This document shows, piece after piece, positions 26,689 to 63,355 of a stretch of DNA of 64,000 bases. Positions within the stretch are counted from its first letter, which is position 1. Every line of letters begins with the position of its first letter. Position numbers and translations under genes: made by a program. Below the pieces are notes generated by a model that saw nothing but the letters and a program-made list of their open reading frames with translations, was not told the origin of the DNA and did no database searches. Source of the DNA: Coptis chinensis (taxonomy: Eukaryota; Streptophyta; Magnoliopsida; Ranunculales; Ranunculaceae); assembly GCA_015680905.1 (NCBI GenBank), contig CM027377.1:62083501-62147500 (forward strand), read 5' to 3'.

Positions 26689-26723
26689 TAAGAAAAATTC
26701 TAACTTTCTTTACGTTGAGTGGC

Positions 26724-28247: not shown

Positions 28248-28490
28248 CCTTGCTTTCTCTCCCTTCTGAACTCACACTATCAACAATGGAGGATTTTACC
28301 AGAAAGGGCAAGAAACTTGAAGAGGGGAACGGATAAGAAGTCGCTACCTAATATTTTTTCCTATATTGAGTAAGAAAAGAGGCACTAGATCACTCGGGCA
28401 ACTTACGTTATTTCACTACAAGTCACCCTAAAATCAGACCCCATTAAGAAAACTGTCATTCTTGTGGTGGTCTATAGAGTTATTAAGGGC

Positions 28491-42560: not shown

Positions 42561-43212
42561 TGATTTTTCCCTCGCCAAATACTATTATTACAACCCATGC
42601 CATCCGAAATTTTGACAATTCCACCCAAAATTTCTACGATTTTATTAGAAATTCCAGACAAATTTTCAAAAATTATTTATTCCTATTTTATTTCGGTTTT
42701 ATTTTAAGAGGCCTCTTATTTTAATTTTTTTAACCCGACAAATTTTAATATATTTAGTCTAAATTAGTGGGTTAGCGGCATAGTTAGCAATTCATAATAC
42801 GGCAAAAATTCGATACATAAAATATTAGAATAAAATTCGAGTTTCGACAAGAATTCGTTTTTTCAATTCGGATTAAAAAAAATGGAAACGGCAAAAGTTC
42901 CCGTTCATAAGTAATTTGAGTATAATACAAAGCTAAAATTTAAAAAATACGATAAAATTTGACAACATACTAAACTTATAGTGAAAATACGAATAATTCT
43001 CGAATTAATGATTTCTTGCCTAATTAACGAATTATTCCGTATCATTGATAAATACGATATTTTTAAACGTTTTCCGAATTAAATGAATAATTCGCCGAAT
43101 TGCTAACTATGGTTAGTGGGACCTCCTTACATCTAGAATAACAATTTGGGTCGGAAATTTAAATTAATTTTTAATGATCGATTCAAATTTCAATTTTGGA
43201 ATCGGGGTTTTT

Positions 43213-43370
43213 TATTAAGAGGGCATCTAGGGTGCATCAGGGTGTATGAGTGCACAGGAATGAGAGCCCTTGGACAATACTTCTTTGTTGCAATACACTA
43301 GTACTTTTACCTATATGAGTGGCCCAGATGCTATACGCTGAGTACACCCTACGCACACTAGCTTTTCGGT
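43213..43370. mobile_element. MITE copy 2 (inverted relative to copy 1)
   Basis: Reverse-complement match to 40255-40410, about 85% by eye, ending in 'acgcacactagcttttcgg'. Confidence 0.75.
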
Positions 43371-44190
43371 ATCCATAATATCCACGATATTTATCGATAA
43401 TTTAGATGTATCCATGATATTTGCATATGAGACAATGTCAAATATCCCCAAAGAAAAAGATATATCCACGATACATATCCATAAATCAGGGATCGATACT
43501 TTGCCATATCTTGATATTTTGTACTATGGTTTCACATGCAAATATCGTGGATATATCCAAAATATCGACAAATATCATGGATATTGTGGATATTTCTTGA
43601 TATATCTTGATATATAATTTATATTAATTTGAAATATAATGATAAATATTAACCTCAAATATTAAATACAATTGTTAACTACATAAAATATCGCAAAATA
43701 TCTCCAAATATTGCAAAATATCGCATATATTGTTGATATTTACAGTTGAACTAGCATTCTAGCATGCACGATGTCCCTGTTGTTTTTCATGCTTATTTTA
43801 TGCTACCTATCCGAATTCGAAATCAATATGGTTAATAAAACCGAAAAGCTAGTGTGCGCAGGGTGTACTCAGCGTATAGCATCTGGGCCATTCTTTGATA
43901 TAGCATCAGGGTGCACTCTAAAACCGAAAACCGTATGGATATTCTTTGATATATCATGATATTTAATAATTTATATTTATTTGAAATATAATAGTAAATA
44001 TTAAATAACCTACACAAAATATCGCCAAATATCCCAAAATATCAATAAATATCGCAAATATCGCCAAAATATCACGGATATTTGCAGTCTTATATATATA
44101 TCTCTAAATATATCGTGATATTTATATATCTTTTGTTGACATATAGATATTTATCATGAAATATCACGATATATCGTGATATTTTATACT
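43370..44190. repeat. Degenerate 'atatcgYgatat' tract with direct duplication
   Basis: Irregular ATATC/GATAT repetition. The segment 43427-43535 (acaatgtcaaatatccccaaag ...) recurs at 44201-44300 as a direct repeat about 775 bp away, so part of this tract was duplicated. Confidence 0.6.
43838..43925. mobile_element. MITE copy 3, internally deleted
   Basis: Keeps both ends of the MITE (gaaaagctagtgtgcgcagg, agggtgcactct) but lacks about 70 internal bases present in copies 1 and 2. It is inserted in the ATATC tract. Confidence 0.65.
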
Positions 44191-44442
44191 ATTGGTGAAA
44201 CAATGTCAAATATCCCCAAAGAGGGGGATATATCCACGATACATATCAAGAAATTGGGTATCGATAAATACTCATATCCTCATATTTTGTACTATGTTTT
44301 GTACTATGCTATAGTCATCCCAAAATTTTCTTGTTGAAAAATACACATAATTTCAAAATTTCATTAGGCACCTCATTTTATTATTGATGTCCATGAATAA
44401 AATACACGTATTTAATTAAGTAACCCCCCATTAGGCACCTCA

Positions 44443-44585
44443 TTTTACTTAACCACCCACGGATGTACCCACATTTGGCGATAACCCCCCATTTTAAAAA
44501 ATTCATTACTGATTGCCCCCCGCCCACTCCGTCTATTTTGTGAGTACCGTCAGTTGATATTTTTTATATTGCCCACTTTACCCCT
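44443..44585 (+). repeat. MULE terminal inverted repeat, left
   Basis: Runs from 'ttttacttaaccacccacgg' to 'gcccactttacccct'. It matches the reverse complement of 57331-57470 at roughly 88-90%, including 'gagtaccgtcagttgatatt' without mismatch. Confidence 0.9.
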
Positions 44586-45000
44586 ATTATATAGCGGGAA
44601 TATTTGAAAGAGAGCCCCCCACATTAAAAAACATAAAACATAAACACGATTTGTGTAAAACCCCCTAAATGTGCCCTAATTTTATCTGATCATTCTCTCT
44701 CTCTAACACTGTTGATCTTCTTCTCATTTGATTGTGGTCACTTCTCCGTCTTTCTCTTTCGTTCTCACTTCACTTATTTCACTGGTAAGTTCACTCTCAC
44801 TATTTACTTTTTCGTATGAAATTTTAAAAAAATTGCACATTTATGTTCGTCGGGTTGTTTTGTAGTTTGGGGTGTTTATTTTGTGACATTTGGAAGTTTA
44901 TATTGATGTTCCCTTTGTAATGATGATTGTATGATCAGAAAAATGTTTGATTTGTAATATTGTGTTTGATTTGTGATACTGTGTTTCCCGTTTCAGAAGA

Positions 45001-46762
45001 ATGTCTGTTCGAGGGTATAGGGTTTTAAGGATACATTTAATGGAGAATGGAGAGAAGCAACTAGGGATGGTGTTAGGCGTAATGTGTATGTGGGTGGGAA
45101 CACAGTTGATACAGACATAATTGATGGTGATGTAGCTAATATGGTCGAATTGGTTGCTTGGATCACATGTAAAATTGATTGTCCCCCAAACCCTATACTT
45201 GAGATTAGTTGGGCTGATGGAGAAAATAGAAGACAAATTGTGTCTGATGCTGATTTGTTTTATATGTGGGGTCATGCAAGTAGAGATAGGAGAGGGTATA
45301 GCCATTTGTATATCAAAGTTATTGAAGTGGAAGAATTGAGCAGTACTGATGATGAGGATAATTCTAGTGAGTATCCACCCACAGACTATGAAGCAAAAGA
45401 AAGTGATGATGATGTCATATATGTTGATGGCATACCATGCAAGAAAGGACAAGATTTTGATCTTGATGAATGGCCAACAGTTGAAGAAATTGATAGGATG
45501 ATGGACTTGACAAGTGGCTCTTTTAAGGGTAAAAAATTGTTGGAATGTAATACTGTTGGTGATGGGCTTGGGTCTGGGTCTAATACTTCCAAAGATCTTG
45601 GGTCCAATACTGTTGGTGATGGGCTTGGTGTAGGTGATGCAGAAAAGTCTCAAAGCTCTACCCAAAGGATGAGGAATAGTATGAGAAGTTCTCACTCCCA
45701 AAGATCTTGTTATCAAGTTGCAGGTACGTTTTGTTCTTTATTATCTTTTTTCTTGAGATGTCTTCATATTTCTGAAAATGTTTTATTGATTTTAGCAGAT
45801 AAAACAGGCCATGGTGAGTTTGATGACACTTTAAACTTTGACTTTTTGAACTTTGGAGTGGAACAGAATGTTGCTCAAGCTGATAATGTGACAACAGATA
45901 ATGATATGTTACATATTAGGGGCCTCTACATATTATTTTTTATTTTGTACTGTACAAGAAATAGGTTATGATATATCTCATGATATATACTTACTAGATC
46001 TGTTTGATAAACCAGCAAAGCCAGAAAGACCAACAAGGCCAGAAAGACCACAAGTTGATGTGAATCAGATTGATGCAGAAGAGGCATACCACAGTTGTGA
46101 ATCAACAGATGAGGAATACATCCCTTCTGAAGGTGAAAGTGATATTGAATTTGATGCCTATGTTGTTGGAGAGCATGAGCATGAGCTTGATGAAGATGTA
46201 AGCAATGCTGGTAGAGTTAGTGATGTTGTAAACATAATATTCAACATACCAACTGATGAAGGTGTTACTAGTGGTGCAAAACCATTGATTTTGGAGGTTG
46301 GTCAGACTTGGAAAGACAGGTATGAATTAAGGGATTACATTAGACTTTATGCTATTAGTAATAAGTTCATATTGAAGTAGACAAGAAATGACAGTGATAA
46401 GATGGAGTGGAAATGCAAGTCGCAGGATTGTAAATGGAGGTGTTATGTTAGGGTGATGACAAATGGTCATACAATGAAGTGTAGAAGCATGAATGATATA
46501 CATACATGTGTTGGTGATGCAGAAGAAAGGAATCCAATGGAAAATGCCCAGTGGATAGCAAGTCAAATTGAGATAGAAATGAGGCTGCATCATAGGAGTT
46601 TTACTCCTAATGACATCAAAGAAGAAATGATGCATAAGTTTCAGGTAAGGATTAAGTATTGGCAGGCTTGGCATGCAAGAACCATAGCAATGGAAAAAAT
46701 ACATGGAAGTTATGATCTTTCATATGCAAAATTGGCTGAGTTGTGTAGGCAACTTGTTGCTA
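45001..46762 (+). pseudogene. MULE transposase, 5' part (PB1-like region and MuDR DNA-binding domain)
   Basis: A 5'-UTR intron is likely (donor near 44784, acceptor 44996 before ATG 45001). After a frameshift near 45025 the reading is FNGEWREATRDGVRRNVYVG and onward, a PB1-like N-terminus, then an acidic linker with introns (about 45724-45797 and about 45908-45965). A MuDR DNA-binding region follows: WKDRYELRDYIRLYAISNKF, WKCKSQDCKWRCYVRV, HTCVGDAEERNP. A TAG at 46378 stands in for Trp of FILK(W)TRND. Coding ends at LAELCRQLVA where the CACTA-like element was inserted. The catalytic part resumes at 53519 with SNPGSVAIHSRH. Confidence 0.85.
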
Positions 46763-48514
46763 CTACAACAGAAGGGCTCTTTTGCAGCGCACCCTTTTGC
46801 CACGCTAAAAATTTGTTGCTAAAACACATCTATTGCAACGCCAGCTGGCGCTGCTAAATGTCTTCCGTTCCATAAGGCCTGACTTACTTGCATTCACATA
46901 TTGCAACGCCTAGACCGTGACAAATGCTTGCTTTTATTATTTTTAAGAAACAATAACAAATATTTTTTTTAGGAATTTTAGCATTGGCAACGCAGTTGTC
47001 GCTGCGACAATACATGGAATTATTTGCAACGCCGTATTCATTGCTATAAGCTTTAGTCGATTTAATATTTACGGTTTCTCAATATTTGGTATATATTTGT
47101 TGCGGCGATTGTGGCGTCACAATTGGACTCTTTCAATTTTCACAGCCTTCTTCGCGGGCTTTCTTTTGGGTTTTGGCTCGAACAAAATAACTAAAATACT
47201 GAAAATAGAAATAACAAAAATAACAAAAAAAAAAAAACCCTAAAATCACTTCTTCTCTCCAACTGCTCGCTCCCCTCTTTAGTTTCATCAACAAATATTG
47301 CTATTGCTAGGTGGCTTCAATCTTCCACCCCCGAATTAAGGTAGTCTTCTTCTACATTTAAGATAATTCATATAAGCTTTCCATATTTCGCAATCTATTT
47401 TTTTTTTTCATATTACATATTAAATTTAAAAAAAAACTTTGTTTTCGGTTCTAGGATTGGGATTGGTGTTTTGATTTTAAGGTAATCTCCCACAACCAGA
47501 AAAACGTTAGTTTTGATTTTGGGTTTGTTGAAAGTTTCAATTTTTTTTTCGATTAAAAGAATTTGTTGTTTCACGTACAATTAGATTCAACCGTCTCTGC
47601 TGGGGCAAGGCCGGATCTGGGACCATCAAGAATTTCTCCTTGGTCTCATTCTTTGGTGGTCTCGTCGATGGCAGCATCAACATTTGGAATCCCCTCTCTC
47701 TCATTCGGTAATCTATCTCTCAATGCCTTTATTATTATGATTTTTATATTACCATCAACCGATCCATCCATTGTTTTCCTGTTATATCGGGATCCATTTA
47801 GGGTTTCTTCAATAACAACTACAAAATTCATTCCTTAATAATAATTAATCAATTAATAAACGTTTATCCCTGCAGTTCACAGGATGTTGACCGTTCTCTT
47901 GTTGGACGTTTTCCAAAGCATACAGGCCCTGTAAGTTTTTCATAACCCTGCCTACATCATCCTCTCTTGATTTCCTCACACTTTTACTTACCTCTGGGCT
48001 AAAGGTTCGTGGTCTCGAATTCAATACCAATCTGCCAAACCTTCTTGCATCTGGTGCTGTTGAAGGGGAAATCTGCATTTGGGACCTGGCAAATCCAGCA
48101 GAACCTACTCATTTCCCACCACTCAAGGTAACAAAACAACATTATTTCTCAATTGATGCATGCACTGTAAGATTGACAACAATTTCATCTTTGTCCGATT
48201 TTTGCCGTCTAAAGCTCAACTTATTTGACTCCTTTGTACGTAATGGAGTATCTAGTTAGTTATATATTAATGGCAGTGAGCTTTACCGGAGTGGCTTAGA
48301 GGGTTTCGTATAATTTTTCCATATCCTTGTGTCTTAAACCTAGGTAGATCTTCTAATCCCGACAAACTAACTTGCAGAGCTACACTGCTTATTGGATCTA
48401 AATGTACAAAACGCCAAATTCTATCTATTATAGAATTCAAGGAGAACCAATTTAAAGCAAATTTGTAAAGAAAACGAGAATGAAATAAACAAGTAGTGAA
48501 GGAACCCCAAGAAT

Positions 48515-48515
<1 letters not shown>

Positions 48516-48604
<89 letters not shown>
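48516..48604. repeat. (GA)n microsatellite, about 43 units
   Basis: A near-perfect GA run of about 88 bp inside a SEC31-derived intron. It produces a meaningless Leu/Ser frame on the minus strand. Confidence 0.95.
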
Positions 48605-48605
<1 letters not shown>

Positions 48606-49733
48606 ATTCGTTTCTGTGTTTGCACTGTTACTCATCAGCAGTCCTTTTTATTCCTTTTCACCCAAAACTTTGCTGTATATACCTTTTAAGTCCCCTCCGC
48701 CACTGACTTGCAAAGAGGAGAGTTATGTTACTGTTCACCACACCCAGAATTTGTTTGTTCCTATACCTATTAAGTCGCACCCCATTCACTGAGACTACAA
48801 GAATGACAAATTTTCCGTATCATTCAGAAATATGGACTTTCAAATTGAATGTCATTCAAGTACAATATGGGAAATTTTCAGCTAGGCTCGGCATTTTTGT
48901 TTGTCTTTTTTATGTTTTGTGTTTTTGTTTTTGGGGTGCTTTTGGGAATTCTGTTTAGGCAACTAGAGTGCTTTAGGGAAACTGTAATCACCCTATCACT
49001 GTATACTATTGTTACACATAGTGCGTTTTAACTATTATTAGTTGTTCAAAGGTTTACCACTTTAGCAGGTCAGCGAACTTAGCTTATGAACGTGCTACTT
49101 CTAGTAAATTTTAATGGAATCAGTATCTTCAAGTTGAACATCTTTGTTGTTCCAACCGAAGTTCGACCTCCTTTTCGAAATGATTCTTGTCGAAATGAAA
49201 CGCTTGCGATTTGACAGTGAAATATTGTGCAGAGTGTTGGATCTGGTGCGGAAGGAGAGGTTTCATTTTTGTCATGGAATCATAAGGTCCACCATATATT
49301 AGCATCCACTTCTAATAATGGTACCACATGTGAGAAAGGGAAGACATTATCATTTCTGTATATTGATAATTGTGTGTTAGTTTTTTTTTTCTTGGAATTC
49401 TTACTAATGCATGTTTTCATAAATAAGAATAATGGCTGAGACATAATAGTGTACTATATCAAATAGTTCATTCCCTCATCACTGTTCATTCTTTTCCAAG
49501 TCAAATGCCACACATCTCTGCTTTCCAATCTCCCTATTCTCTTTATTCTCCAAAAACTGGTGATGGTGGGAGAAGTTTCCAATAATTTTCTCATACATGT
49601 GAATTAGGATTGGCTAGAAATGCAGAGATGGTGAAATTTGACTTGCACTTGAAGAACATATATGATGAAAACCACAATTCTTAATAGCATGGATCTTTGG
49701 TAGAATAAGAAATAATAAGAAAAGAAAGAGTGC

Positions 49734-50600
49734 TTAACGAGGACTAGTAATGACATCGACCGCTAAACGATTGAAAGAAAGGCAAGTGGCATCCGGAGCT
49801 CCCCGGATTCTCGCTCTTCTTGAACAGACACTTTGGAGAAGAAGAGATCTTGAAGAACTCATCGCCTACTAATCGTTCGAGCTATCGAGCCGAAAGACGC
49901 ATCAATTACTCCATTTGGGCTGCCAGGTTCAAACTGATACTTGCGCTTACGAGTGTAGCTCACATTCTGGTTCTCCTTGATATCTCCTGAATTAGAGTCC
50001 AAGATAAGAGCACTGCACTCATCCAGCTTGTCCTGATTGATTTTAAGGATATCCATAAGCTGGTTCTGATACTCGGTGGGATTACAAGGTTTCAACCTCC
50101 TTGATAACATGCAACATTGTTGCAGTAGCAAGTACATAAGGGAGATAACAAACAGACCTCGAATCAGCAATGACAGACAGAAGCAAACGTTCACATCTCT
50201 TCATAAACTCCCAATGAAGATTATTCTTCAATCTAAGCCTCCTTATTATGTGATCAAGAAATGAAAGTGGTGTAACTTGATTCATCCTCCAATGAAGAGT
50301 AGAGAGTACCAGAAACTCCATTCTCTGAATAGTTTTGGCTTCAAACACATACTTTGTTTCTTCCACTTGCAGATCTAAGAGAAGGGGAACTTGGGTCTCT
50401 TCCACCTTAGCAGCAACAGAAAGACAAGCTACAGCAGCAAGTTGAGTCATCCATGGCTTATCTTTCTGAAAACGAAGGCTTGACATGAATCTATCAAGAT
50501 AGTTAACAGCAAGAACTGCAGTGAGTGTAGAGAAACCATAGTGTGCGTCAACTTTTAACATCCACTCAACAGCTTGTTTGGGACTGCAGTGAGTGCAAAG
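49734..50600 (-). pseudogene. CYCD3: Captured D3-type cyclin fragment, antisense and intronless
   Basis: D-type cyclins bind CDKA and promote G1/S entry. On the minus strand from about 50600: QAVEWMLKVDAHYGFSTLTA, NYLDRFMSSLRF, KPWMTQLAAVACLSVAAKVE, QVPLLLDLQVEETKYVFEAK, then cyclin_C: LSTLHWRMNQVTPLSFLDHI, MKRCERLLLSVIADSR, CYLPYVLATATMLHVI. A frameshift near 50085 moves to PTEYQNQLMDILKINQDKLD and KRKYQFEPGSPNGVIDASFG. Further shifts lead to the natural C-terminus SFNRLAVDVITSPR with a TAA at 49734-49736. The N-terminal LxCxE exon is absent. No intron interrupts about 280 codons, although plant CYCD3 genes normally have several, so a cDNA-derived copy is possible. It lies in the SEC31 intron between 49329 and 50623. 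Confidence 0.9.
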
Positions 50601-51061
50601 AAACCATACGTTGGTATTTCAGTTGTTTGGGACTTAAAGCGGCAAAAGCCAATGATCAGGCAAGATACAAACTTGTGACTGGAAAATATCTTTGGCAAAT
50701 TTTCATCTTATGTTTCATTGCATGATTGGTTATGATCTTTGTGTCATTAACAGCTTTGCGGATTCAAATCGAAGACGGTGCTCAGTTTTGTAGTGGAATC
50801 CGGATGTTGCCACACAACTCATTGTTGCATCCGATGACGATAGCTCACCTTCTCTTATAGTACGCTTCTCTTGACATTTATCTTATCTATGACCTGGTTT
50901 TCAAGATTCTGTGTACTTAGCTTGGTATGTTTCTCTGATCTTTACCCACAGCTTTGGGATGTGAGGAATACAATATCACCAGTGAAGGAGTTTGTGGGCC
51001 ACACAAAAGGTATGAGACATCACTGTTTCATTTTTATTATTTATTTTTTCCAATTAATTTA

Positions 51062-51187
51062 ATTCCAGTGGCCTACTGGTAAGGACTTGGGAGGTTGGGC
51101 CCAAGGTCTAGGGTTCAATTCCCGCCTTTACTGGGGAAAAGGGAATTTAAAGGATTAGGAATAAAGTTATACTATAAAAAAATAAGT
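51062..51187 (+). mobile_element. Short tRNA-derived SINE-like sequence
   Basis: Contains a pol III A-box-like 'tggcctactgg' and a B-box-like 'gggttcaattcc' about 40 bp apart, followed by an AT-rich tail ending in a run of A. There is no cloverleaf with an acceptor stem, so it is a SINE rather than a tRNA gene. It sits in a captured SEC31 intron. Confidence 0.5.
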
Positions 51188-52619
51188 CTTGAAAATATTG
51201 TCGTCATATTGATATGCGAGTTAACCTTGGATGGCTATATATGTATACAAAATTTCTCTTGCTTTCTTTCTCTCTTTCTTCATTTATATTTTTAAGTCAG
51301 TTAAGTTTTTATTATGTGTGTTTTCCTTGGCTGGTAAGCTTGGGTGCTTTGTTTTAATCAAAATCTGGAATAGCTATTTCTGTGGCAATGTCGAGTTCTC
51401 TTCATATAATTGGATGTGTTTGTTTCAAATAAAAACATCTTGACCATATTTATCCAATTATTTTCTACACCAGGTGTAATCGCAATGTCATGGTGTCCGA
51501 TCGACAACTCTTTTTTGCTAACCTGTGCAAAAGACAATAGGACTATTTGCTGGGATACAATCTCAGGAGAGGTGGGAATGTTTTGACTGGCGTTCATATT
51601 TAGTGCTACTTCTTTTTTGGCTCTTTGTTATTCAACCATTTGTGCTCCTAGATTCTTGTTAACATTATTGTCCGCACTTGGCTATAGTTTTCTGATGTCA
51701 ACAATATTGGCTTTATATTAAATTTGGTGCAGATAGTATGTGAATTACCTCCTGGAACCAACTGGAATTTTGATATTCACTGGTATCCAAAGATCCCAGG
51801 GTTGATATCAGCGTCCTCTTTTGATGGGAAAATTGGCATTTATAATGTTGAGGTATGGACATTCTACAATGCATGTACAACTAGTTTTTGGAGACATTGT
51901 TTGACAAGGCTTCATTTTGCCGAGTTTTATACTTTTATTTGCATATTGCCGAAGAAAAATAACTGGATTGTTAGAATTAGACATTTTGCATGCTTGATTG
52001 AAGGTTGTAAAATAACCGGATTATTAGAATTTTACATTTTGCATGGAAGATTGAAGGTTGTAAAATGACTCGAAGAGACAGGAAGTCGTCCCTACTTCAT
52101 ATTAGCAATCGACAAGTTAGAACCCAAAAAAGAAAAGATACTAGAAATAGACAAGAGAACAAAACCTGAAAACCCACCTTTTATTTTGAGTATACAGGAA
52201 GCATCCCACGCCCGATACCTTTACATTTGACTCTGCCATCTGTTGGAACTGCTTTTTGTAATTGAGCTTGTTTGCTTGATTTACTTGATGTTTAGCCTTG
52301 CTTATTTTATTGTTTCATTGGTGATAACTTTATGACACAAGGTTTTTTAATGGTTTGACATTTACATGTACAATTTAGTTCAAAATCTATTAGCTTTTGG
52401 CTATTTTTGTCTTCTTATTTGATCTGTGTCTTCATGAATGTGATCGAGTTATAACTTTGATAAGTTCTTTCTAAGCTTTTGGCCATGGGCACCAATTTAC
52501 TCATATAGGAGGTGCATAGTTTCACATACATTGCCAACTTGAGTGTATTTTAGGTTTATTAATGTTTCTAATAAATTTACTTAAGTGATTTTTTTTTTTT
52601 AATTTGTTGTGCCAGATTG

Positions 52620-52960
52620 GTCGGTCGCCAGAAGTAGTAGAATCAAGAAGAAGCTCGAAAGTGGATCTTTGCTCAAATTAGCATGCTATAGACATTATTT
52701 GTGGAATTTTAGTTTTGAATAATTCGTCTAAATTTAGTTGAACGTTGTTAAGATTATGTGAGATGATGTTTTTTTGCAAAAAATAGTTATGTGAATTCTT
52801 TAAGATCTTTTGTATTGAATGATTTAGCATTTAGGATGTGTTATATAAAAATTGTTTTGGGCGGGGATTATGCAAATGGAAATATATAGGTATATGTATG
52901 AATTGCACAATCTGTAATGTTAAATCGTCCCAAATAAAGCGTGTGTTTTTCTGGAATTTA
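52620..52960. other. 3' edge of captured SEC31 sequence
   Basis: An acceptor-like 'gtgccag' at 52615 precedes an open stretch (IGRSPEVVESRRSSKVDLCS) that I cannot match to SEC31. After it the CACTA-like subterminal region begins near 52960. Confidence 0.35.
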
Positions 52961-53518
52961 TATCATTCGCAACAATTTTAGTGTAGCTAAAAGCTTTGAT
53001 TCTACCGTAACGTAGACATTTTTTGCCACACTTGGTGTGTGGCTAAATTTATAGGCGTCTTTTGCCATGCCAAATGTTCAGCTAAATATTCAAACTTCCC
53101 GCACTGTGTAGCCAAATATTTAAACTTTTCGCAACGGAAATAGTGTAGCAAAAGGTTGCCTTTTGTGACGCCTAGTTGTGTAGCTAAATGTATCACTTTT
53201 GCAACGCCATCCTAGTTGTTACAAGCTCTCTTTTGCGACGTCAAGCGTTGCAAATAGTTTGAATTTTTTTTTGCAATTAATTTAATTTTCATAAATGAAG
53301 TAGCAACGGAATTAGTGTATTAGCAGCGCCCACAGGCGTCGCAACAAACTAAGAACATTTGCCATGCCACTTTTGGCGTTGCATTTGAGTATTTGAGACG
53401 CACTTTTTAGCAACGCCTTTGCAACGCCATCTGGTGCATTGCGACAGATCTTTTGCCACGCTCAAAGGCACCTTTAGCGATGGGGTATGGCGCTGCTAAA
53501 ACCATGTTCTGTTGTAGA

Positions 53519-55487
53519 ATTCTAACCCTGGAAGTGTTGCAATACATTCTAGGCATGAGAATTTCCATACTTTTACAACTCTGTGTGTTGCTAGCTTTCA
53601 AGGTTGCTCTAGATGGATTTGTACAAGGGTGTAGGCCTATGATAGGACTAGATGGTTGTTTCTTGAAGGGGAAAAATGGAGGTGCGTATCTATCCATCAT
53701 TGCTTTGGATGGTAATAATGGAATGTTTCCGATTGCCTTCTATATTTGTATTGTAGAAATCATAGAGTCATGGACTGATTTTTTGGATAAGATGGCACCA
53801 CACTTGAACAAGCATCATGACAAGTTGACTATAATTTCTGATAGGCATAAAGGATTATGTAAGGCAGTGGAGACTGTTTTCCCCGACTGCAACCAGAGGT
53901 TCTATTTTAGGCATATGGTCCAGAACATGAAGATAAAGCATAGAGGAGTTGACTATGAAGCTTGGTGTGCTGCCAAAGCATTTGCACAAACAGAGTTTGA
54001 CAAGTTGATGCAAGACCTGGAAAAACTTGATAGTGGAGCTAAGGAGTATCTGATGGGTGAAGACCCTAGGCTGTGGGCAAGATCACACTTTGATCATGTG
54101 TCCAAGTGTGAGCAGCTGTCAAACAATTTTTCTGAAGCTTGGAATAGCTACATACTGGATGCTAGGGACAAGCCCATTGTGAAGATGGTGTCAATGGTGA
54201 TGGTGTTACAAATCAAATTGTTGTATGATAGAAAGGAAAAATGTGAGTTCTGGGGTGACAATGAGTTGGTGCCAAGGGTTAAAACAATCATAGATGACAG
54301 ATGTAACAAGATTGAAAACATGAGTATTAGTGGTTCTCAAATCCAGGGGAAGTATTTAGTGAATCATATATATGGTAAATGGTGGAATGTGGACTTAAAC
54401 TTGCACACATGTGATTGTGGTGAATGACAACTCACTGGGATTCCTTGTCTTCATGTTGTAGCAGTAATCAAGCCTAGAACATTTCAATGGCATGAGTAAG
54501 TGTGAGCAGTACATATTGTCTTGTCCTTTGTTAATGATTCATACATTGTTGCTATAGGTATTGTAGCCTTTACTTTACTGGAGCAGCTTATAAAAGAGCT
54601 TGTGGTGGTCACATCACACCTTACTTGCATGAAGAGTGCGCAACAGTAAGACACTTATCCCTAATTTGAAATAAGCTTTAATATGTGAATCTTCAGAGTT
54701 AGCCCTAATATTATAATTTTTTTTGTAACAGCCAATTGAAGTTGAGTTTATCTTTCCACCAATCAGAAAAAGGCAACTTAGGAGGCCAAAAGTGAACAAA
54801 AGAATAGGTGCAGATGAATCAAATGCAGTAAGATGTTCAAGGTGCCAAGCTTATGGGCATAATGCCAGAGGTTGTCAGGGAGGTGCAGTGGGAGACAATG
54901 CCAATGCAGAAGCAAATGCAACTACAACTGCAGCTGCCAGATGCTCTCATAGAGGAAAAGGAAGGCATGGGAGACCTAGAACAAGCCCACTACCAAACCC
55001 TTTTCTAAACAGACCAATCAATGCTGCTGATGGGAGTCAAGTTCCTGAAAGTGAACTGGCTGCAAAGGGAAAAGGAAGTAGAGGCAGGGGAAAGGGTAGG
55101 GGAAGGGGAAGAACTGCTGAGGAAGGAAACCAAGTACCTCCAAGTGTGGATGGGAGCCAAGTCCCTCCAAGTGTACTTGAAAGCCAAGGAACTGCAAGTG
55201 TGGAAAGGAACCAAGTTCAAGCAGAGGTGGATGGGAGCCAAGGACCTGTAAGAGGGAGAAGATGCAGAGGAGCTGGCAGGGGCAGGGGCAGAACCAATGT
55301 TGAATATGAACCCATGTCTTCAATGGAAGAACTACTATTTGGAAATTCACAAGGTTCCCCATAGCCTAGCTAGTCTACACCAATTCAAACTCAAGACAGT
55401 GTGAATATACCTCCAATGCCACCAATGGCACCTCCAAGAAAGAGATCAAGGAGGTCCTCCCAGGCTTCTTCTGTTGTAGAATCCTGA
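53519..55487 (+). pseudogene. MULE transposase, 3' part (DDE core, SWIM finger, zinc knuckle)
   Basis: Resumes with NPGSVAIHSRHENFHTF, then a frameshift near 53590. The DDE core follows: GCRPMIGLDGCFLKGKNGG (first Asp), LTIISDRHKGL (second Asp), FRHMVQNMK, and SNNFSEAWN with a candidate Glu. The SWIM finger CDCGE*QLTGIPCLHVV has a TGA at 54425 in place of Trp. Further exons carry YFTGAAYKRACGGHI and, from 54732, PIEVEFIFPPIRKRQLRRPK. A CCHC knuckle CSRCQAYGHNARGC follows (about 54834-54876), then a Gly/Arg tail with repeats like G.QVPPSV. After TAG codons at 55363 and 55372 the frame runs on to a basic end (PPRKRSRRSSQ) and TGA at 55485. It would bind and cut the TIRs if intact. Confidence 0.9.
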
Positions 55488-55801
55488 ATGCAGCTATTCT
55501 TGTCAGCCTTAAGTTAGATTTTGTCATATCAAACTTGAAGTGTTATGTTGTTATATTTTATCAGACTTAAGTTAGATTTTGTCATGTCAGACTTCTCAAA
55601 ATGGAGGTGCTATGTTTTGATATGTCATGTGCTCTGTTTTGTTGTTTTGCTATGTCATGTGCTATGTTGTATTGTTTTGTTAATTCAGTTGGCTTTATAT
55701 GCTATGTTTTGTTGCAAATTTGAGAATTTCTATTAAATGTAGACTTGAATACAATAGGTACAACGTAACAACCACTCCCTCATTCACAGATACATTACAA
55801 A

Positions 55802-56222
55802 TCACATGTTCAGTTTCCTTACAAGCTCAATTACATCAGATACATTGCCTTCAATGTGCATCTTTATAGGACCATCAATACACAACTTAAGTTTACCTTT
55901 CCCTTTCCTCTCATCCTCTTCCTCATTCACAACAACAACCTTTCCTTTTTCTTTCACATCAACTTCCTCATTCACAACAACAACCTTTCCTTTTTCTTTC
56001 ACATCAACTTCCAAATCCATCCATTTGAAACCGCCACATCTTGGTGCTCCCTTACATCTAAGAAATCTTTGTCCAAAACTGCATTCTTAGGAACTCCAAC
56101 GATCAATCATAGTATCTCCACATCCCTTAACACAAGGAAAGTTAAGCCAAGGGCATTCAAACTTCCAATGACCAACATCCCCACACAGAAAGCATGCTTC
56201 TCCTTTGTTAGTTGATGACATT
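55802..56222 (-). pseudogene. Convergent MULE ORF: CCHC knuckle plus GRF-like zinc finger
   Basis: On the minus strand from ATG 56222: MSSTNKGEACFLCGDVGHWK, giving the CX2CX4HX4C knuckle CFLCGDVGHWKFEC. Next is PCVKGCGDTMIDRWSS, a TAA (56087-56089), then in the same frame ECSFGQRFLRCKGAPRCGGF KWMD. The last part resembles the C-terminal half of a GRF zinc finger (RRFxxC...CGFFxWxD). A Lys/Glu/Val-rich repeat (DVKEKGKVVVVNEE, two copies) and the end IELVRKLNM follow. It would be about 140 residues. Its promoter side holds the 91-bp minisatellite. It may be the accessory gene of this MULE lineage; one stop codon breaks it. Confidence 0.65.
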
Positions 56223-56299
56223 GTAGTTGGTACCTGAAAAAATTGACATATGTTGATTAACATATGCTTTGTATAAACCCCCCATATTTCAATATATGT

Positions 56300-57118
56300 T
56301 TTGTATAAATCCCCCAAATGTTAATATATGTTTTGTATAACCCCCCATTGTTTACATAGGTCTTTGACCATTAAACATACAGATCTCCGCTAGTGCCCCA
56401 TCTATGCTGATCAATATATGTTTTGTATAAACCCCCCATTGTTTACATAGGTCTTTGACCATTAAACAAACAGATCTACGCTAGTTCCTCATCTATGTTG
56501 ATCAATATATATTTGGTATAAACCCCCCATTATTTACATAGGTCTTTGACTATTAAACATACAGATCTACGCTAGTGCCCCATCTATGTTGATCAATATA
56601 TGTTTTGTATAAACCCCCCATTGTTTACATAGGTCTTTGACCATTAAACATACAGATCTACGCTAGTGCCCCATCTATGTTGATCAATATATGTTTGGTA
56701 TAAACCCCCCATTGTTTACATAGGTCTTTGACCATTAAACATACAGATCTACGCTAGTGCCCCATCTATATTGATCAATATATGTTTTGTATAAATCCCC
56801 CATTGTTTACATAGGTCTTTGACCATTAAACATACAGATCTACGCTAGTGCCCCATCTAATTTGTCAATATATGTTTTGTATAAACCCCCCATTGTTTAC
56901 ATAGGTCTTTGACCATTAAACATAGATATCTACGCTAGTGCCCCATCTAATTTGTCAATATATGTTTTGTATAAACCCCCCATTGTTTACATAGGTCTTT
57001 GACCATTAAACATACAGATCTACGCTAGTGCCCCATCTAATTTGTCAATATATGTTTTGTATAAAACCCTCATTGTTTACATAGGTCTTTGACCATTAAA
57101 CATACAAATCTACGCTAC
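56300..57118. repeat. 91-bp minisatellite, about nine units, inside the MULE
   Basis: 'cgctagtgccccatcta' recurs at about 56388, 56479, 56570, 56661, 56752, 56843, 56932, 57021 and 57111 (last copy altered). Units are about 95% identical. Each holds 'tgtataaaccccccattg', 'tttacataggtctttgacca' and 'ttgatcaa'. 'TTGACC' is a W-box-type WRKY core, repeated once per unit. The array lies between the right TIR and the 5' end of the minus-strand zinc-finger ORF. Confidence 0.93.
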
Positions 57119-57330
57119 TGAAATAAATTAGATGAAGGCATGGAGAGAAGATGAATTAGAATGACTGAACCTTTTTAGAGCCCGAACCACCACCCATGAG
57201 AGCAAAAAATTGGTTTGGGAAAGAATCGTGTTGGAGAAGACAAGTTTTTCGTGGGTCCAAGTTTGGTCCAAGTCTGGTCTTAAATAAGCCAAGAAAATGA
57301 AAAATACAAATAAATACAACGACTATTTTT

Positions 57331-57470
57331 TAAGGGGTAAAGTGGGCAATATGGAAAATATCAACTGACGGTACTCACAAAACAGACGGAGTGGGGGGCA
57401 ATCAGTAAGGATTTTTAAAATGGGGGGTTATTGCCAAAGGGGGGTACATCCGTGGCGGGTTAAGTCAAAA
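57331..57470 (-). repeat. MULE terminal inverted repeat, right
   Basis: Inverted partner of 44443-44585; ends with 'cgggttaagtcaaaa'. Confidence 0.9.
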
Positions 57471-57680
57471 ATTTAGTACCGACTCTATTTAGTATTTCAT
57501 ATATTCCATATAAAGAATCATCTATAATTCCGGTTAATAGAACTGGCTTCAAAGAATCATACATTCCAAAGTACAGACCCGTGTAAACAATAATGTTGAA
57601 GGCATGGTAAAACCCAGCAATACCACTGAACTTTAAAGTCTTATAGACATCAATCACAACTTCAAGAAATCAATATTGTC
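57471..57680 (-). pseudogene. ADP/ATP carrier (AAC) fragment
   Basis: On the minus strand: [20 protein letters not shown] then [21 protein letters not shown], the third-repeat region of mitochondrial ADP/ATP translocase. Family proteins read FNISCVGIIVYRGLYFG; here FNI joins IVYTGLYFG, an in-frame loss of about five residues. Similarity fades after VLLTG, about 60 bp before the MULE TIR edge. No other carrier sequence is nearby, so this is a decayed fragment. Confidence 0.85.
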
Positions 57681-57984
57681 ATTCTAGTACATGTCTCAAT
57701 TTTTCCGAAAGCACTTTATCCGATCCAATCCGAAGTCGGGGGGTTCACACACAACCTGTATGCAAAATATTTAGTATTTCACAATTATATTTACAGAGGT
57801 CAGATATTTATATATATAATAAAACATGTATTAATTTTCAAAAACCATCAATAATTTAATTACATATTAATGAAAACTGAATAATGAAACATATCTTTAT
57901 CGAATGAATCAATATGACAATTAATCCTTTTCCTTTTAGTAGTATATTTTAGGTTGTTGGGATAGTGAGATTTTAAAAAATGAC

Positions 57985-58110
57985 AAAAGCTAGTGTGCGT
58001 CAGGAGAGAGAAAAAGCTAGTGAATCTAGGCCACTCATACACACAAATTGAGGGTGTATTGCATGGCAAGGTACCAGATCTATGCCCTCCTAGCCATATC
58101 TTAAAACAGG
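57985..58110. mobile_element. Degraded MITE related to the 40.2-kb family
   Basis: 'aaaagctagtgtgcgtcagg', a second partial 'aaaagctagtg', then 'aggccactcatacacacaa' and 'gtgtattgca' follow the order of MITE copies 1 and 2, with several changes. Confidence 0.55.
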
Positions 58111-58126
58111 TTATACATGTAACGGG

Positions 58127-58384
58127 TAGGGCTGGAAATGGTACGGGATTCAACCCAAATCCGACCATATCCGAATCCATTTTAATGGATATGGTTTCTA
58201 CGTTTGTGACTAGAATCCGACCCGAGATTCGAACCATTTTAACAAGATTCATAATTTGATGCCTAAAAATTAATTTATATCGTACATTTATATATGAAAA
58301 TCATTAAAATAGTGTATTTTTTTGTGTTTTTAATAGATATGGATATCCAAAACCCGACCTGAACCCGCTCCATTTCCAGCCCTA
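58127..58384. mobile_element. hAT-like MITE with perfect 15-bp TIRs
   Basis: TAGGGCTGGAAATGG at 58127-58141 and its exact reverse complement at 58370-58384. Length 258 bp, non-coding. The flanking octamers gtaacggg and gtcacagg agree at six of eight positions, consistent with an aged 8-bp target duplication of the hAT type. Confidence 0.8.
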
Positions 58385-59100
58385 GTCACAGGTTGATGTC
58401 CTGACCCATTAGCCCCGAGAACTAATCGGGTCTACCAACGGGTTATGTGACCCAAACCCAACCCATTTATTTGACGGGTTCGACGGATCAACCCTTAAAT
58501 GACCCCTTTTTTCCTAACCCAAACCCGCTAATTTCATATCGGGTTAGTGGGTCGTGTACAAAACTGCCACCCCTATATATAACATATTATTCCCAACTGA
58601 AGGGGATAAATCGTCGATAAGGACCGATATTTCGTGGGTTGATGGTAGGAGTCCGTTTGATATATGACCCAAATTTGCCACATGTTTTTGGGCGGTCTTT
58701 TTCGTTGTTGGCGCTCATATGAAAAAATTGAATTGAATCGTGTCCTCAAAGCCACCTAAAACACTGGGAAATCGCAAATATCTCGGATATCAGTTATTAC
58801 GACTGATATTTCATCAGTATTTCAACCGCCTTATTTAATTTAAAATTTGGGGGTCGGTTCAAATAAATTCAACCGAATTCAATTATCCGAAAACACCAAC
58901 CGTCTTTACTTAATTGCTCATCGTGTCTTTTTGGCTCCCCTTCTCATACAACTTTGTTTCAAGCCTCTTCAAACTTCCATCTCCTAATATTTCTTGCGCG
59001 ATCCTCTACCAGTTCAAGTAGGTGTTACAATCCCATTGTTCACTGATTTCTTTTGTTTCTCACTTTTATAGGATTTTAACCCCCTCCCCCAAAATTAATT
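58385..59100. other. Intergenic sequence
   Basis: Contains 'gacccaaaccca' and 'cgggttagtgggtcg' words (58400-58560) typical of plant MITEs, but no definable element. The stretch 58900-59100 is pyrimidine-rich, like a plant promoter or leader. Confidence 0.4.
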
Positions 59101-59135
59101 TGTTGTAGATTGTCGTGTTCATTTTCTGGTTGGAG

Positions 59136-59159
59136 ATGGCTTTGGCCTCAAGACCAGGT
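59136..59159 (+). other. Possible first coding exon, MALASRP
   Basis: An ATG at 59136 opens MALASRP and meets a GTAATT donor at 59160, after a pyrimidine-rich leader with its own splice-like signals. No downstream exon could be recognised, so the gene is only suspected. Confidence 0.2.
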
Positions 59160-59204
59160 AATTTCCAGTGTTCTTTTATATTCATTTTTATATTTTGAGT
59201 GCAG

Positions 59205-59904
59205 TGGCGGAGTTAGAAATTTGAGTGAGGGTGAGCAGTGGCGAAGCCAGGTGAGCACTACAAGTATTCACCCTTTACACAATTGAAGTGTACAAGCCTT
59301 TTCTTTTCTTTATTTTTTGGTTTCTTCTTAATTTATCTTTTATGAAAAGCAAACAATTGTTAGTTTATTTTGTCAATTTTTTAAATCGAAATCATATTAA
59401 TAGTTCGGTTAATAGTTTAGTTAATAGCTTAGTTTATTTTATCAATTTTCTATTTTTGGATTACAATTACACCTAGTCGTTCCTAAGACTAATTAAAGTT
59501 AAGGCCTAAATGTATGGATAAGAAGCAAACTCTAGAGAGTTGCATGTAATATAACACTCAGAGGCGGCTCTGAGGGGTAAGCAACATAGGCAGCTGCCTA
59601 GGGCTCCCACATAATAGACCAATGAAAAGGCCCCCACTCAAGGTTACCTACAGTACATACTAGGTTTAGTTTTGTTTTCACTTTGTTATTTGTGTGGCAA
59701 AATGCATACAGAGGGAGTTGAACTTGGGCTGGAGCTATGAAAACATAAGGTTACCATGTTCTAATGGTAGAAGAGATATAAAATTAATTAATGTTCTAAA
59801 AAAAAATCTGCATAATGATTTTTCTACTGGACTTTTTTGGGTTTTACAAGGCCCCGATATAAGAGTTGGCCTAGGGTCCCCACAATCTTAGGGCCGACTA
59901 ACAG
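59205..59904. mobile_element. hAT-like MITE remnants
   Basis: 'cagtggcggagtt' (about 59203) and 'gcagtggcgaagccagg' (about 59235) are hAT-type end sequences. A fuller element appears at 59559-59904: it starts CAGAGGCGGCTCTGAGG and ends with 'cctagggtccccacaatctt' and 'agggccgactaacag'. The two ends are imperfect inverted repeats, and 'cctaggg' lies just inside each. Non-coding; target duplication not seen. Confidence 0.45.
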
Positions 59905-60549
59905 AGAAAATAAATCTGGATTCTAGTCTCACTCTAGGCACCACCTGGGTGTTCTAGGCCCTATCTTTTCTTCCTCGAAAAAAGTACAACACACACAAGC
60001 AACACTTGAGTTTAATTTTCATACATGGGTGTGGAAGGCCATGTATTTAGGAAGAGAATATTCAAAAAAATACTGTCTAGGAACATGAGTATAAACCGAT
60101 GTAAACTAAATGCAAAAAATTAATTCTAAGACTATGAGCTTACATACATAGTTACTCGGAAACATTTAAAAGTGAGGGAGGTGAATGCTAAGGTTCTCCT
60201 AGTAGGTTAATAGTTAAAGAAATGCCATGTCAAATGGCAGTAATATCTCCCATTTAAAACCAAGAGTAATATGTCTTTACAAAGTATATACACAAAGAAA
60301 AAAAGCTTTATCTGAAAGAGTTGGAAGTTAGTAAGAGTTACCGAATTACATAACCAATGAAGTAGGTTGTTGAGGAGTAGGTGGTTGCAGGTAGAGTCTA
60401 TCTTGGATTGGAACAAAATTTTTTTTTTTTCTTGTCCTAAGGATTCCTAGAAGGGTTCATTAGACGACGTTTACCTTTATCCAGAAGAAATAACGAACAT
60501 AAAAAGATACGCAGCGAAACTAAAACTTTGTTTTCCTACATGGAGAAGT

Positions 60550-60770: not shown

Positions 60771-62102
60771 TGATAAGAGCCCAAAACTGTAGTTTTAACC
60801 CCTTAATAATCATACTGTTAGACCAATTATGCGAATAATAAGTAAGAGTTAATACTGATTACGTGTTTTTATGCATTTCAGGCTTCAAAGTCCATTATCT
60901 TGTAAATGTGCCACTTTAGCGAGATAAAGGAGCAAAAGTCACTGAACTTCGAATGCCATATCTTTGGACTCAGACCTCGGATTGAGGCCTACCTTATGTC
61001 AAAAAACGACCGGCTCGGAAAGAGCTTTGCAATGGTCCAAGCCTTGACCCAATCAGAGGAGCAGAAGTGGACGAAAAGTCTGTGGAAGCCAACTGCAGCT
61101 GAAGAGGCCTTTTTGGGCCTGATTCTCTGGCCCAACCCATGGCTCCAAGCCCATGCACGAATTTTGGATCTGGATGTATAAAAACAAAAGCTTAGCTCTT
61201 TGTTAATGGTAGCTAGTTAGACCTAAATTAAGATATAGAATTCTAGATCTAGTTTTATTAATTAAATTAAGTTTTAGTTCCATTTAAATTCTTGTTTTAG
61301 ATTAAATCTCTGAATCATTGTTCTTGATTGATTAGATAAATAAAGTAGTATTTTTATCAAGTTCGAATTTGTCATTTCCATTTTAGATCTAAATTCAATT
61401 CTTGTCATTGTTTTATTCCAGCCATTAAATTAGATTCATTATTGCTAAATTAAGTAATTCTCAATTTCTCACATTATGTTTAGTTTAGATTCAATGGTAA
61501 ATGTTAGATTGATGACTCAAGGCTAAACCTCCATTAGAGGGGTTGATGAAGCCTTGATGAAAACTTAGTTGTTTAGTATAGAAACATTGTAGAATCTATT
61601 CCACTATAGAAGGTCGCGGTTAAGCCATGAGAATGGGTGGGGCGACCTCACATGCTAGTTAGTACTTGGTAGAAATGCCATGAAAACTAGGGATTAGACT
61701 CGGAATTCTTGCCGTGAAAACGTAAGAATCGAGATACCACAATCTATGCTAGGTCATTAAGTTAGATTCGAGGTGGATTCGATTCCCCTCTAATTCCTTT
61801 ATCTAGAGTCAAACAATAGTATTTCCATAGCATTTGTAGTTAATTTCTAGTAATCATCTTAATTAAGTATCGTAGTATAATATTTCGTAAAGCTCTCATT
61901 GACTTAAGGGCGACTAGTTAGACTTAGAAAACAATCCGTGCTAGAGAACTAGGAGTGGAACGAACTTCGTACTCCATTTAGTGCAATTCGCATTGAGAGT
62001 AGAAGTCTTGATAATAGACTCGTATCTAGAACTAAGTTTAGTTTACTTACGTTTGGATTCATCGTTCATTTCGTAGGTAAATTATCCATTTTACTATTAT
62101 CA
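60771..62102 (+). repeat. Putative 5' LTR (1332 bp)
   Basis: Starts TGATAAGAGC and ends ATTATCA two bases before the primer site, giving TG...CA termini. A TATA box (TATAAAA, 61178-61184) after 'ctggatg' is a likely transcription start region. A frame at 60906-61181 is ordinary LTR sequence. The start is inferred, since the second LTR is outside the window. Confidence 0.65.
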
Positions 62103-62450: not shown

Positions 62451-62704
62451 TAGAGCGCGCCCGCCCTTCTCACGAAAATTCAGGATTTCCAGTTTGATTG
62501 AACTTCGAGTTGTCAAGTTTTTCAGTGTTCTAATCTCTTATATACACCGAACACGCCGCACACAAGACGCTATTCATAAGTTAAGCAAGGACGCTTATCG
62601 TATTCCTTTCTTCCATACTTCGCATTTCTAGTTAGAGGTTTTCTACTAGTATATCAGAATTGTTTGGAGTGTTGCATGTTTAGTTAAGCTTAACTTAGTC
62701 TTGC

Positions 62705-63355
62705 ATGAGATTAAGGTCTGGTCGAACAAAAACAACAAACGTAATTACACGGCAACAAACAAGTCTATCTAGTACACCACCCACGACACCTCTAGCTACT
62801 ATTACACACACCATACCTGACATAATGGCTGAAGAAAGAGAGACTCCTCTCTCCGACTTCTACAAAGCTTTGAGCGATAGCCCTAAGTCTTGCATCGTTC
62901 TAGCAGACCCAACGGGGGATTTTCGAATCCCCCCAAATATATTTAATCTGTTACCCGTTTTTCATGGGTTAGACCATGAAAAACCCTATCAGCACATGCG
63001 TAGGATTGAACAAGTCCTTACAACATTCCACCACCCTACGGTTGGTACGGAACAGATTAAACTAAGGGTATTTCCTTTCACATTAGCCGATAAGGCGGCG
63101 TCTTGGTTAACTGCCCAAGCGCCTAATTCTGTGGACACGTGGGCTAAACTTGTTCAGCTGTTTATGGAACATTTTTACCCACCCCTAAAGACGGATGAAA
63201 TGCTTTCCAAGATTCATTTCTTCCACGTAACCCTCATGAATCATTTTTCGAGGCATGGAATCGCTTTCACCGATCTCCTTATAGAGTGTCCACACCATAA
63301 CCTAGCAAAAGACACGTTAGTTCGTGTTTTTCAAAGGACTTCAACATCACCATAA
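62705..63355 (+). pseudogene. Retrotransposon gag, truncated by frameshift
   Basis: The capsid-like domain shows VFHGLDHEKPYQHMRRIEQV, EQIKLRVFPFTLADKAASWL, VDTWAKLVQLFMEHFYPPLK and ECPHHNLAKDTL, the pattern of plant Ty3/gypsy gag. A shift near 63240 turns the expected FFEAWNRF into HFSRHGIAF, and reading ends at TAA 63353-63355. Downstream (63590-63670) a decayed knuckle-like CNFC...HDNYC is visible. A Gln/Gly/Asn-rich stretch (NYNNYNNQA, QGQ) fills 63830-64000. Confidence 0.85.

Follow-up and report, generated by a model that had tools for sequence, protein, structure and literature searches.

A CACTA element with SEC31 and antisense CYCD3 cargo nested in a MULE of Coptis chinensis

Nests of transposable elements that hold pieces of host genes raise the question of how their layers came together and in which order. 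In the stretch of Coptis chinensis DNA analyzed here (contig CM027377.1, positions 62,083,501 to 62,147,500; 64,000 nucleotides, hereafter the window), a first-pass annotation made from the letters alone had described a Mutator-like element (MULE) at 44443-57470 split by a CACTA-like element, with SEC31 exons inside the latter and a fragment of a D3 cyclin on the opposite strand within one SEC31 intron. Genome searches, fetched relatives and domain scans lead us to a reading to which we assign a probability of about 0.87: a CACTA element carrying a SEC31 fragment received an antisense retrocopy of a CYCD3 mRNA, spread, and inserted once in a MULE.

Insertion of the CACTA element into the MULE

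The outer layer spans 44443-57470 and ends, as had been proposed, in long terminal inverted repeats, the left one (44443-44585, plus strand, 143 bp) matching the right one (57333-57469, minus strand) at 89%. Matches of about this size, covering only bases 1-156 of a 44450-44800 probe, were found at six loci. The transposase region, on the plus strand, is broken off at 46760 and picks up at 53520. Its N-terminal part (45021-46760) consists of several open stretches, one frame of which ends in a stop at 46378-46380, and in relatives it runs on across the cut; Pfam places a DBD_Tnp_Mut domain there below the cut-off only (E=0.068 twice). The remainder (53520-55364) carries the MULE domain PF10551 (E=5.8e-16) and a zinc-knuckle at E=0.23 only. 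Both the transposase domain and the long inverted repeats of a MULE are therefore present, and inspection by eye found no matching flanks at 44443/57470 of the kind left by an 8-11-bp MULE target-site duplication. As the left flank is common to ten relatives and the right one to two, the original site of the MULE is old or altered.

To place the cut, the genome (935.6 Mb in 116 contigs) was searched with the right transposase half (53525-54430), which has at least 40 matches (the best 40 of 247 candidates), and the DNA around the cut was fetched for 20 of the 39 matches outside the window. The site is unbroken in all 20 relatives, reading exactly TTGTTGCTTCTAACCC in 14 and differing by one base in six, where the window reads TTGTTGCT, then the insert, then TTCTAACCC. 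The left flank of the window (250 bp tested) matches over 245-250 bp in 18 of the relatives; in the other two the match is confined to the bases closest to the site, 80 bp in L048 and 121 bp in L051. From 60 codons before the site to 35 codons after it, the frame is open in 11 of the 20, with LCRQLVASNPGSVA or a closely similar sequence as the reading; the other nine hold at least one stop within that stretch, and in L048 the upstream part of the site-spanning reading is other sequence. A search of the whole genome for the left MULE/CACTA junction, with up to 2 mismatches allowed, gave a single occurrence. Together, the empty site in the fetched relatives and this one-off junction indicate that this MULE copy alone carries the insertion. 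The first-pass annotation, which saw the transposase cut at LCRQLV and resumed at NPGSVA, had named MULE relatives naturally containing the segment as evidence that would count against it; none of the 20 contains it.

The insert (46761-53519, plus strand) is a non-autonomous CACTA element of the Pack-CACTA type with host sequence. Its 13-bp ends read TACTACAACAGAA and TTCTGTTGTAGAA, the common form of the family being CACTACAACAGAA and TTCTGTTGTAGTG, and the inverted ends seen earlier at the cut, CTACAACAGAA and TTCTGTTGTAG, are present at 46763 and 53517. For the first 138 bases of the element the genome yields at least 40 matches (the best 40 of 243 candidates); four, the window included, are at 100%. 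Nineteen of the 39 non-window matches were fetched, together with one SEC31 place lacking element ends, so that the sister copies with the same ends that had been anticipated do exist. Ends were counted in the 17 copies in which both could be placed, L022 and L033 being left out for want of a single clean 3' end. Thirteen of the 17 have CACTA...TAGTG at both ends, 15 begin CACTACAACAGA(A/G) and 14 end in TAGTG; the sister copies thus show the inverted ends of the CACTA superfamily. In the window these ends are recognizable and their outermost bases are eroded, to TACTA and TAGAA, and the 3-bp duplication is not intact. Identical 3-bp flanks border eight of the 17 sisters, where random expectation is 1 in 64; the ends of two of these eight, L029 and L032, were placed by hand.

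Subterminal repeats, a further mark of the superfamily, are found with a motif chosen by eye from the ends. The 5' zone (46761-47182) holds 10 TTGCnACGC-like motifs in both orientations (counted in 46763-47182) and the 3' zone (52941-53519) holds 13 (in 52941-53518), a density of 22-24 per kb over terminal zones of 420 bp and 578 bp, with none in 47183-52940. The element is multi-copy and carries pieces of SEC31 and CYCD3, as expected of a Pack-CACTA, its non-autonomy being judged from its named content and not from a full scan. Other cargo travels in the same chassis: L028 carries an antisense piece of a tetrahydrofolate dehydrogenase/cyclohydrolase gene (PF00763, 1.2e-43) and L037 an RPE65-family piece (4.8e-07).

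The SEC31 fragment and the CYCD3 retrocopy

The first host cargo is an internal genomic SEC31 fragment with exons and introns (47583-51995, plus strand), which opens within exon 1 (FNRLSWGK) and closes near 51995, in the intron that follows ...KIGIYNVE. A probe from the last captured exon, with all candidates scored, found 10 places: the window, eight sister elements and locus L027 (C59:55400-65399). L027 matches the window in three blocks, 47583-48516, 48630-49383 and 50609-51995, and contains neither CACTA ends nor cyclin. Its frames give a first exon beginning MACIKGVNRSASVAFSPDSPYLAAGTM... and further exons beyond the captured part, which we take to be SEC31-like, and its exons corresponding to the captured ones find their best match in Sec31 structures (7sul, E=1e-24); from these frames L027 looks like a SEC31 gene. 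The earlier recognition of SEC31 exons within the insert is upheld by these matches. Family members free of SEC31 outline the chassis: L034, L035, L036 and L038 match the window up to 47585; the match resumes at about 52300 in L035, L036 and L038, and L034 has only a diverged stretch (71%) nearer the 3' end. At the left chassis/SEC31 junction the bases AGA are common to both partners, as is expected of microhomology-guided joining, which may have been how the capture was repaired. An AG microsatellite of 44 perfect units lies at 48517-48604, within a SEC31 intron of the element; between its blocks ending at 48516 and starting at 48630, L027 shows nothing that matches it.

The second cargo lies on the minus strand, where Pfam finds Cyclin_N (5.8e-26) and Cyclin_C (3.6e-09); the cyclin is presumably of the D3 subtype. 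The first-pass annotation was right as to the antisense cyclin within a SEC31 intron, the parent gene of which could be found. The parent, L039 on C2, has four exons and three GT-AG introns and encodes 376 residues; all three introns are gone from the retrocopies, in which the exons are joined. Those retrocopies that keep the relevant side begin in the 5' untranslated region (UTR), and the examined ones finish in an A-run at the point where the L039 gene runs on with CTTATTGCC and has no A-run. A captured genomic fragment was rejected since the parent introns are missing; the cyclin is a copy of a processed mRNA. In the window the copy (49391-50580, minus strand) comprises the 3' UTR and most of the coding region, the N-terminal part and 5' UTR being deleted; it covers 0.74 of the coding sequence and has 6 frameshifting indels and 2 stops.

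Processed retrocopies made by long interspersed nuclear elements (LINEs) lack introns, carry poly(A) and are bordered by a target-site duplication, and target-primed retroposition is recognized by an A-tail, a target duplication and a precise empty site. The T-run at 49381-49390, which is the poly(A) tail of the antisense retrocopy (minus strand), is present in the window and in all 14 sisters examined, and is missing at the empty site in L027. The left copy of the duplication (49373-49380, plus strand) reads TGTGTTAG in the window; the form TGTGTCAG stands before the T-run exactly in six of 14 sister elements, with variants in the other eight. The empty intron of L027 reads GATAATTGTGTGTCAGTTTAGTTTCAATGC, so that TGTGTCAG(TTT) occurs there once. 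Four elements keep the right side, and the duplication TGTGTCAGTTTAG is exact in three of them (L021, L023 and L024) and a variant in L025; the window copy has no right side. Combining copies, the duplication measures 8-11 bp, and together with the A-tail and the empty site it is the mark of target-primed retroposition.

Genome-wide, the cyclin stretch gives 22 match rows, comprising 12 retrocopy pieces in elements (the window included), L060 and nine others. Four of the remaining rows are exons of the C2 gene, two are neighbors on C5 at 80-83%, two are weak and one is a second, short match within L037. In a further three elements, L029, L030 and L033, only the 3' UTR side of the cyclin is kept. 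Locus L060 (C4:45515300-45518300) is a second, independent CYCD3 retrocopy with a T-run and an exact 14-bp duplication, TGCAGCTGACACTT; its fetched flanks (0.67 and 0.74 kb) have no SEC31 or element match. All nine retrocopies tested, eight in elements and L060, have between 6 and 22 frameshifting indels each, some of which may be assembly errors.

Order of events and competing explanations

Sister copies also record what happened to the compound element afterwards. L021, L023, L024 and L025 keep about 490 bp, between window positions 50579 and 50609, that comprise the N-terminal end of the cyclin, its 5' UTR and the right-hand duplication. In the window and L026 this segment is lost and a short cyclin-like stretch stands instead (50581-50609 in the window, boundaries approximate), and L037 is continuous with the window over the junction. 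A further junction, 47519|49061, is common to L026, L037, L020, L022 and L029-L033, and the window does not have it. These shared junctions make the branching order partly readable and place the window between the full and the doubly deleted forms.

All nine exon-probe elements (the window and eight sisters) contain cyclin sequence. Since the cyclin lies inside SEC31, the SEC31 gene is empty of it and nine of nine elements have it, SEC31 capture followed by retroposition is the simplest order, although only a favored one, because the retrocopy could have entered another SEC31 allele before capture. In the likely sequence, SEC31 capture thus came first and CYCD3 retroposition second, followed by amplification, loss of the cyclin N-terminus and private insertion in the MULE. 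The first-pass order of SEC31, then cyclin, then MULE fits the cyclin-free SEC31 gene, the nine elements and the one-off junction, and stands as favored, not as proven. Substitution levels agree loosely with it. The SEC31 parts of the elements differ from the SEC31 gene by 3.7-6.1% (7 copies) and the cyclin parts from spliced CYCD3 by 2.1-5.2% (8 element copies; 3.4% for L060), with 0.3-2.7% in the cyclin 3' UTR (8 copies), and the window element differs from its sisters by 2.4-3.8% (8 copies). Gap openings of L019-L026 relative to the window range from 6.8 to 23.1 per kb, substitutions varying less, and the uneven gap counts may reflect assembly errors in some copies.

We propose that a non-autonomous CACTA would first have captured an internal, intron-containing SEC31 fragment, and that a CYCD3 mRNA would then have been retroposed in antisense into one SEC31 intron of that CACTA, in a LINE-type manner and probably by a reverse transcriptase of LINE origin. 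CACTA transposase, presumably supplied in trans, would have copied the compound to at least nine sites while rearrangement continued, and one derivative, probably already without the cyclin N-terminus, would have inserted once in the MULE transposase gene.

Several observations weigh against this history. Nine of the 17 sisters lack an exact 3-bp match in their flanks, and L029 and L032, counted among the eight that have one, had imperfect 3' ends. Relative to the empty site the window CACTA keeps a duplication of only about 1 bp, the flanks next to its 13-bp ends being TGC and TTC. The count of end motifs used a motif picked from those same ends, and no CACTA transposase of the TNPD/TNPA type was found in the seven open reading frames scanned with Pfam, a scan made without a genome-wide search for an autonomous member. 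In no single element is the retrocopy duplication exact on both sides, and L027, the one SEC31 place outside the elements that the exon probe found, lies on an unplaced contig of 222 kb. The trees are nearly star-shaped and do not settle the order of SEC31 and cyclin, and the divergences of the two give no clean dating, because the CYCD3 parent is under coding constraint and the SEC31 introns are not.

One competing history has a SEC31 allele receiving the CYCD3 mRNA in its intron, after which the CACTA would have captured SEC31 with the cyclin inside. A retrocopy in every one of the nine exon-probe elements is what a joint arrival would give; however, the one non-element SEC31 place among the 10 candidates has an empty site, and the average distance from the parent gene is somewhat smaller for the retrocopies than for the SEC31 pieces, in a comparison biased by constraint. 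We regard such a joint arrival as unlikely. That the CACTA took the cyclin directly from cDNA, or by template switching to mRNA during gap repair, with no LINE machinery, is highly improbable, even though Pack-type elements can capture by microhomology-guided switching according to the parts consulted of PMC8277862, filler and microhomology at other junctions of these elements would fit such capture, and the lack of a single element with both duplication sides exact speaks for it. Against it stand the A-tail, the 8-11-bp duplication and the precise empty site in L027, as well as L060, which bears the marks of retroposition with no element match in its fetched flanks.

The nest might also have been created by an assembly that joined two repeats, MULE and CACTA both being repeats with dozens of copies, and the 6.8-23.1 gap openings per kb may reflect the quality of the assembly. 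However, the MULE halves continue each other, as the 20 relatives show, and both CACTA family ends lie at that very point, which a misjoin hardly produces; we find an artefact scarcely credible. As to function, the sequences give no sign that the captured pieces act as genes, every tested cyclin copy being frameshifted. We consider it very unlikely that the family, as a gene-collecting chassis with two unrelated cargo routes and a decayed antisense CYCD3/SEC31 cassette, would feed small or antisense RNA back on its parents and so be a functional source of such RNA against CYCD3 and SEC31. Twelve element-borne cyclin pieces, of which one is that of the window, and a single free retrocopy, with 88-96% similarity of the rest to the window piece, and the antisense position of the cyclin within elements that may be transcribed would fit such a role, but all nine cyclin copies tested are frameshifted.

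The surrounding repeat, known systems and significance

Although the inverted ends of the MULE at 44443 and 57470 are as first described, the repeat that contains it goes beyond both. To the left of the MULE end the sequence is common to ten relatives (all ten fetched for that purpose), and to the right to two. A relative on C8 (pieces L072-L074, within C8:93300700-93311400), the middle of which was compared only around the cut (L043), matches window 42564-44484 and 56712-60128 at 91-93% apart from a short gap, 42564 and 60128 being the limits of the fetched pieces. From this homology past both ends, the MULE copies sit in, or arose as part of, a larger, abundant repeat; self-comparison found no long direct or inverted pair bounding it. 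A probe from 39000-39360 matches at least 40 places (the best 40 of 1554 candidates), and among the matches listed a MULE left end stands on the same strand, 6.1-10.4 kb away, for 16 of the 39 places outside the window; in the window this distance is 5.45 kb. Neither of two fetched partnerless places is a MULE-empty copy, one holding the 3' part of the MULE and the other having no match to the window.

In bases 44420-44442, immediately left of the MULE end, the window departs from all ten relatives and carries a repeat of CATTAGGCACCTCATTTTA, which also stands about 67 bp upstream; this indicates that the end was altered locally, and the sequence looks like the product of local template-switch repair. 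Near the right end of the MULE, and inside it, lies a tandem array of a 91-bp unit (56323-57117, 8.8 copies), also seen in relatives L071, L072 and L076. Elsewhere in the window, a second MULE transposase fragment lies at 18695-19417 (PF10551, E=1.4e-29), and a LINE-like stretch on the minus strand at 22576-28271 shows reverse transcriptase and RNase H, and an endonuclease below the cut-off, in several frames. A probe from 61000-61360 falls in a separate repeat whose matches occur in direct pairs about 13.3-13.4 kb apart, with the partner at C1:62157822; from about 61003 to beyond 64000 the window is probably the start of a long terminal repeat (LTR) retrotransposon, with a gag match at 62699-63352.

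The nest is made of known kinds of element, and the uncommon step is that a retrocopy was made cargo of a DNA transposon and multiplied. Like retrocopies of the LINE type, the CYCD3 copy has no introns, a poly(A) tail and a duplication; it differs in that a DNA transposon then multiplied it. Pack-CACTA or Pack-TYPE elements were reportedly described by Catoni et al. in 2019. The present family resembles them, as presented in the parts consulted of PMC8903248 and PMC13317346, in being non-autonomous, with CACTA-type ends and pieces of host genes, sometimes from several loci. It differs in that an mRNA-derived retrocopy is nested in antisense in the intron of another cargo and amplified along with it; the main text of PMC8903248, as far as available, does not mention intron, mRNA or retrotrans-, and the available text of PMC13317346 contains none of retrogene, retrocop- or processed.

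In the accessible part of PMC1947982, Tgm-Express1 of soybean is likewise a CACTA with intron-keeping pieces of several host genes, including the cell-cycle gene CDC2, but it is one element with five fragments that lies within an F3H intron and whose transcription was demonstrated; the present element is a fragment within a fragment, inside a MULE, and known from sequence alone. Animal Pack-TIR elements also capture gene pieces by transposons with terminal inverted repeats, with microhomology at breakpoints (PMC8277862, consulted in part). The same source gives the retrogene ARF6 nearly whole in MER20, for which its authors offer recurrent retroposition as an alternative; these are animal elements, and an antisense retrocopy nested in a captured intron was not seen in the parts consulted. 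A literature search at the level of titles and abstract openings, mostly outside subscription papers, found no plant retrocopy amplified in a CACTA.

The locus thus offers an ordered stack of events at one site, in which two layers can be checked against empty sites and both parent genes are identified. It indicates that a retroposed mRNA can become the cargo of a DNA transposon, after which retrocopies and retroposition events differ in number: the 12 cyclin pieces borne by elements appear to trace to a single retroposition. Because a DNA transposon multiplies retrocopies that stem from one such event, counts of plant retrogenes that ignore transposon amplification would be inflated.

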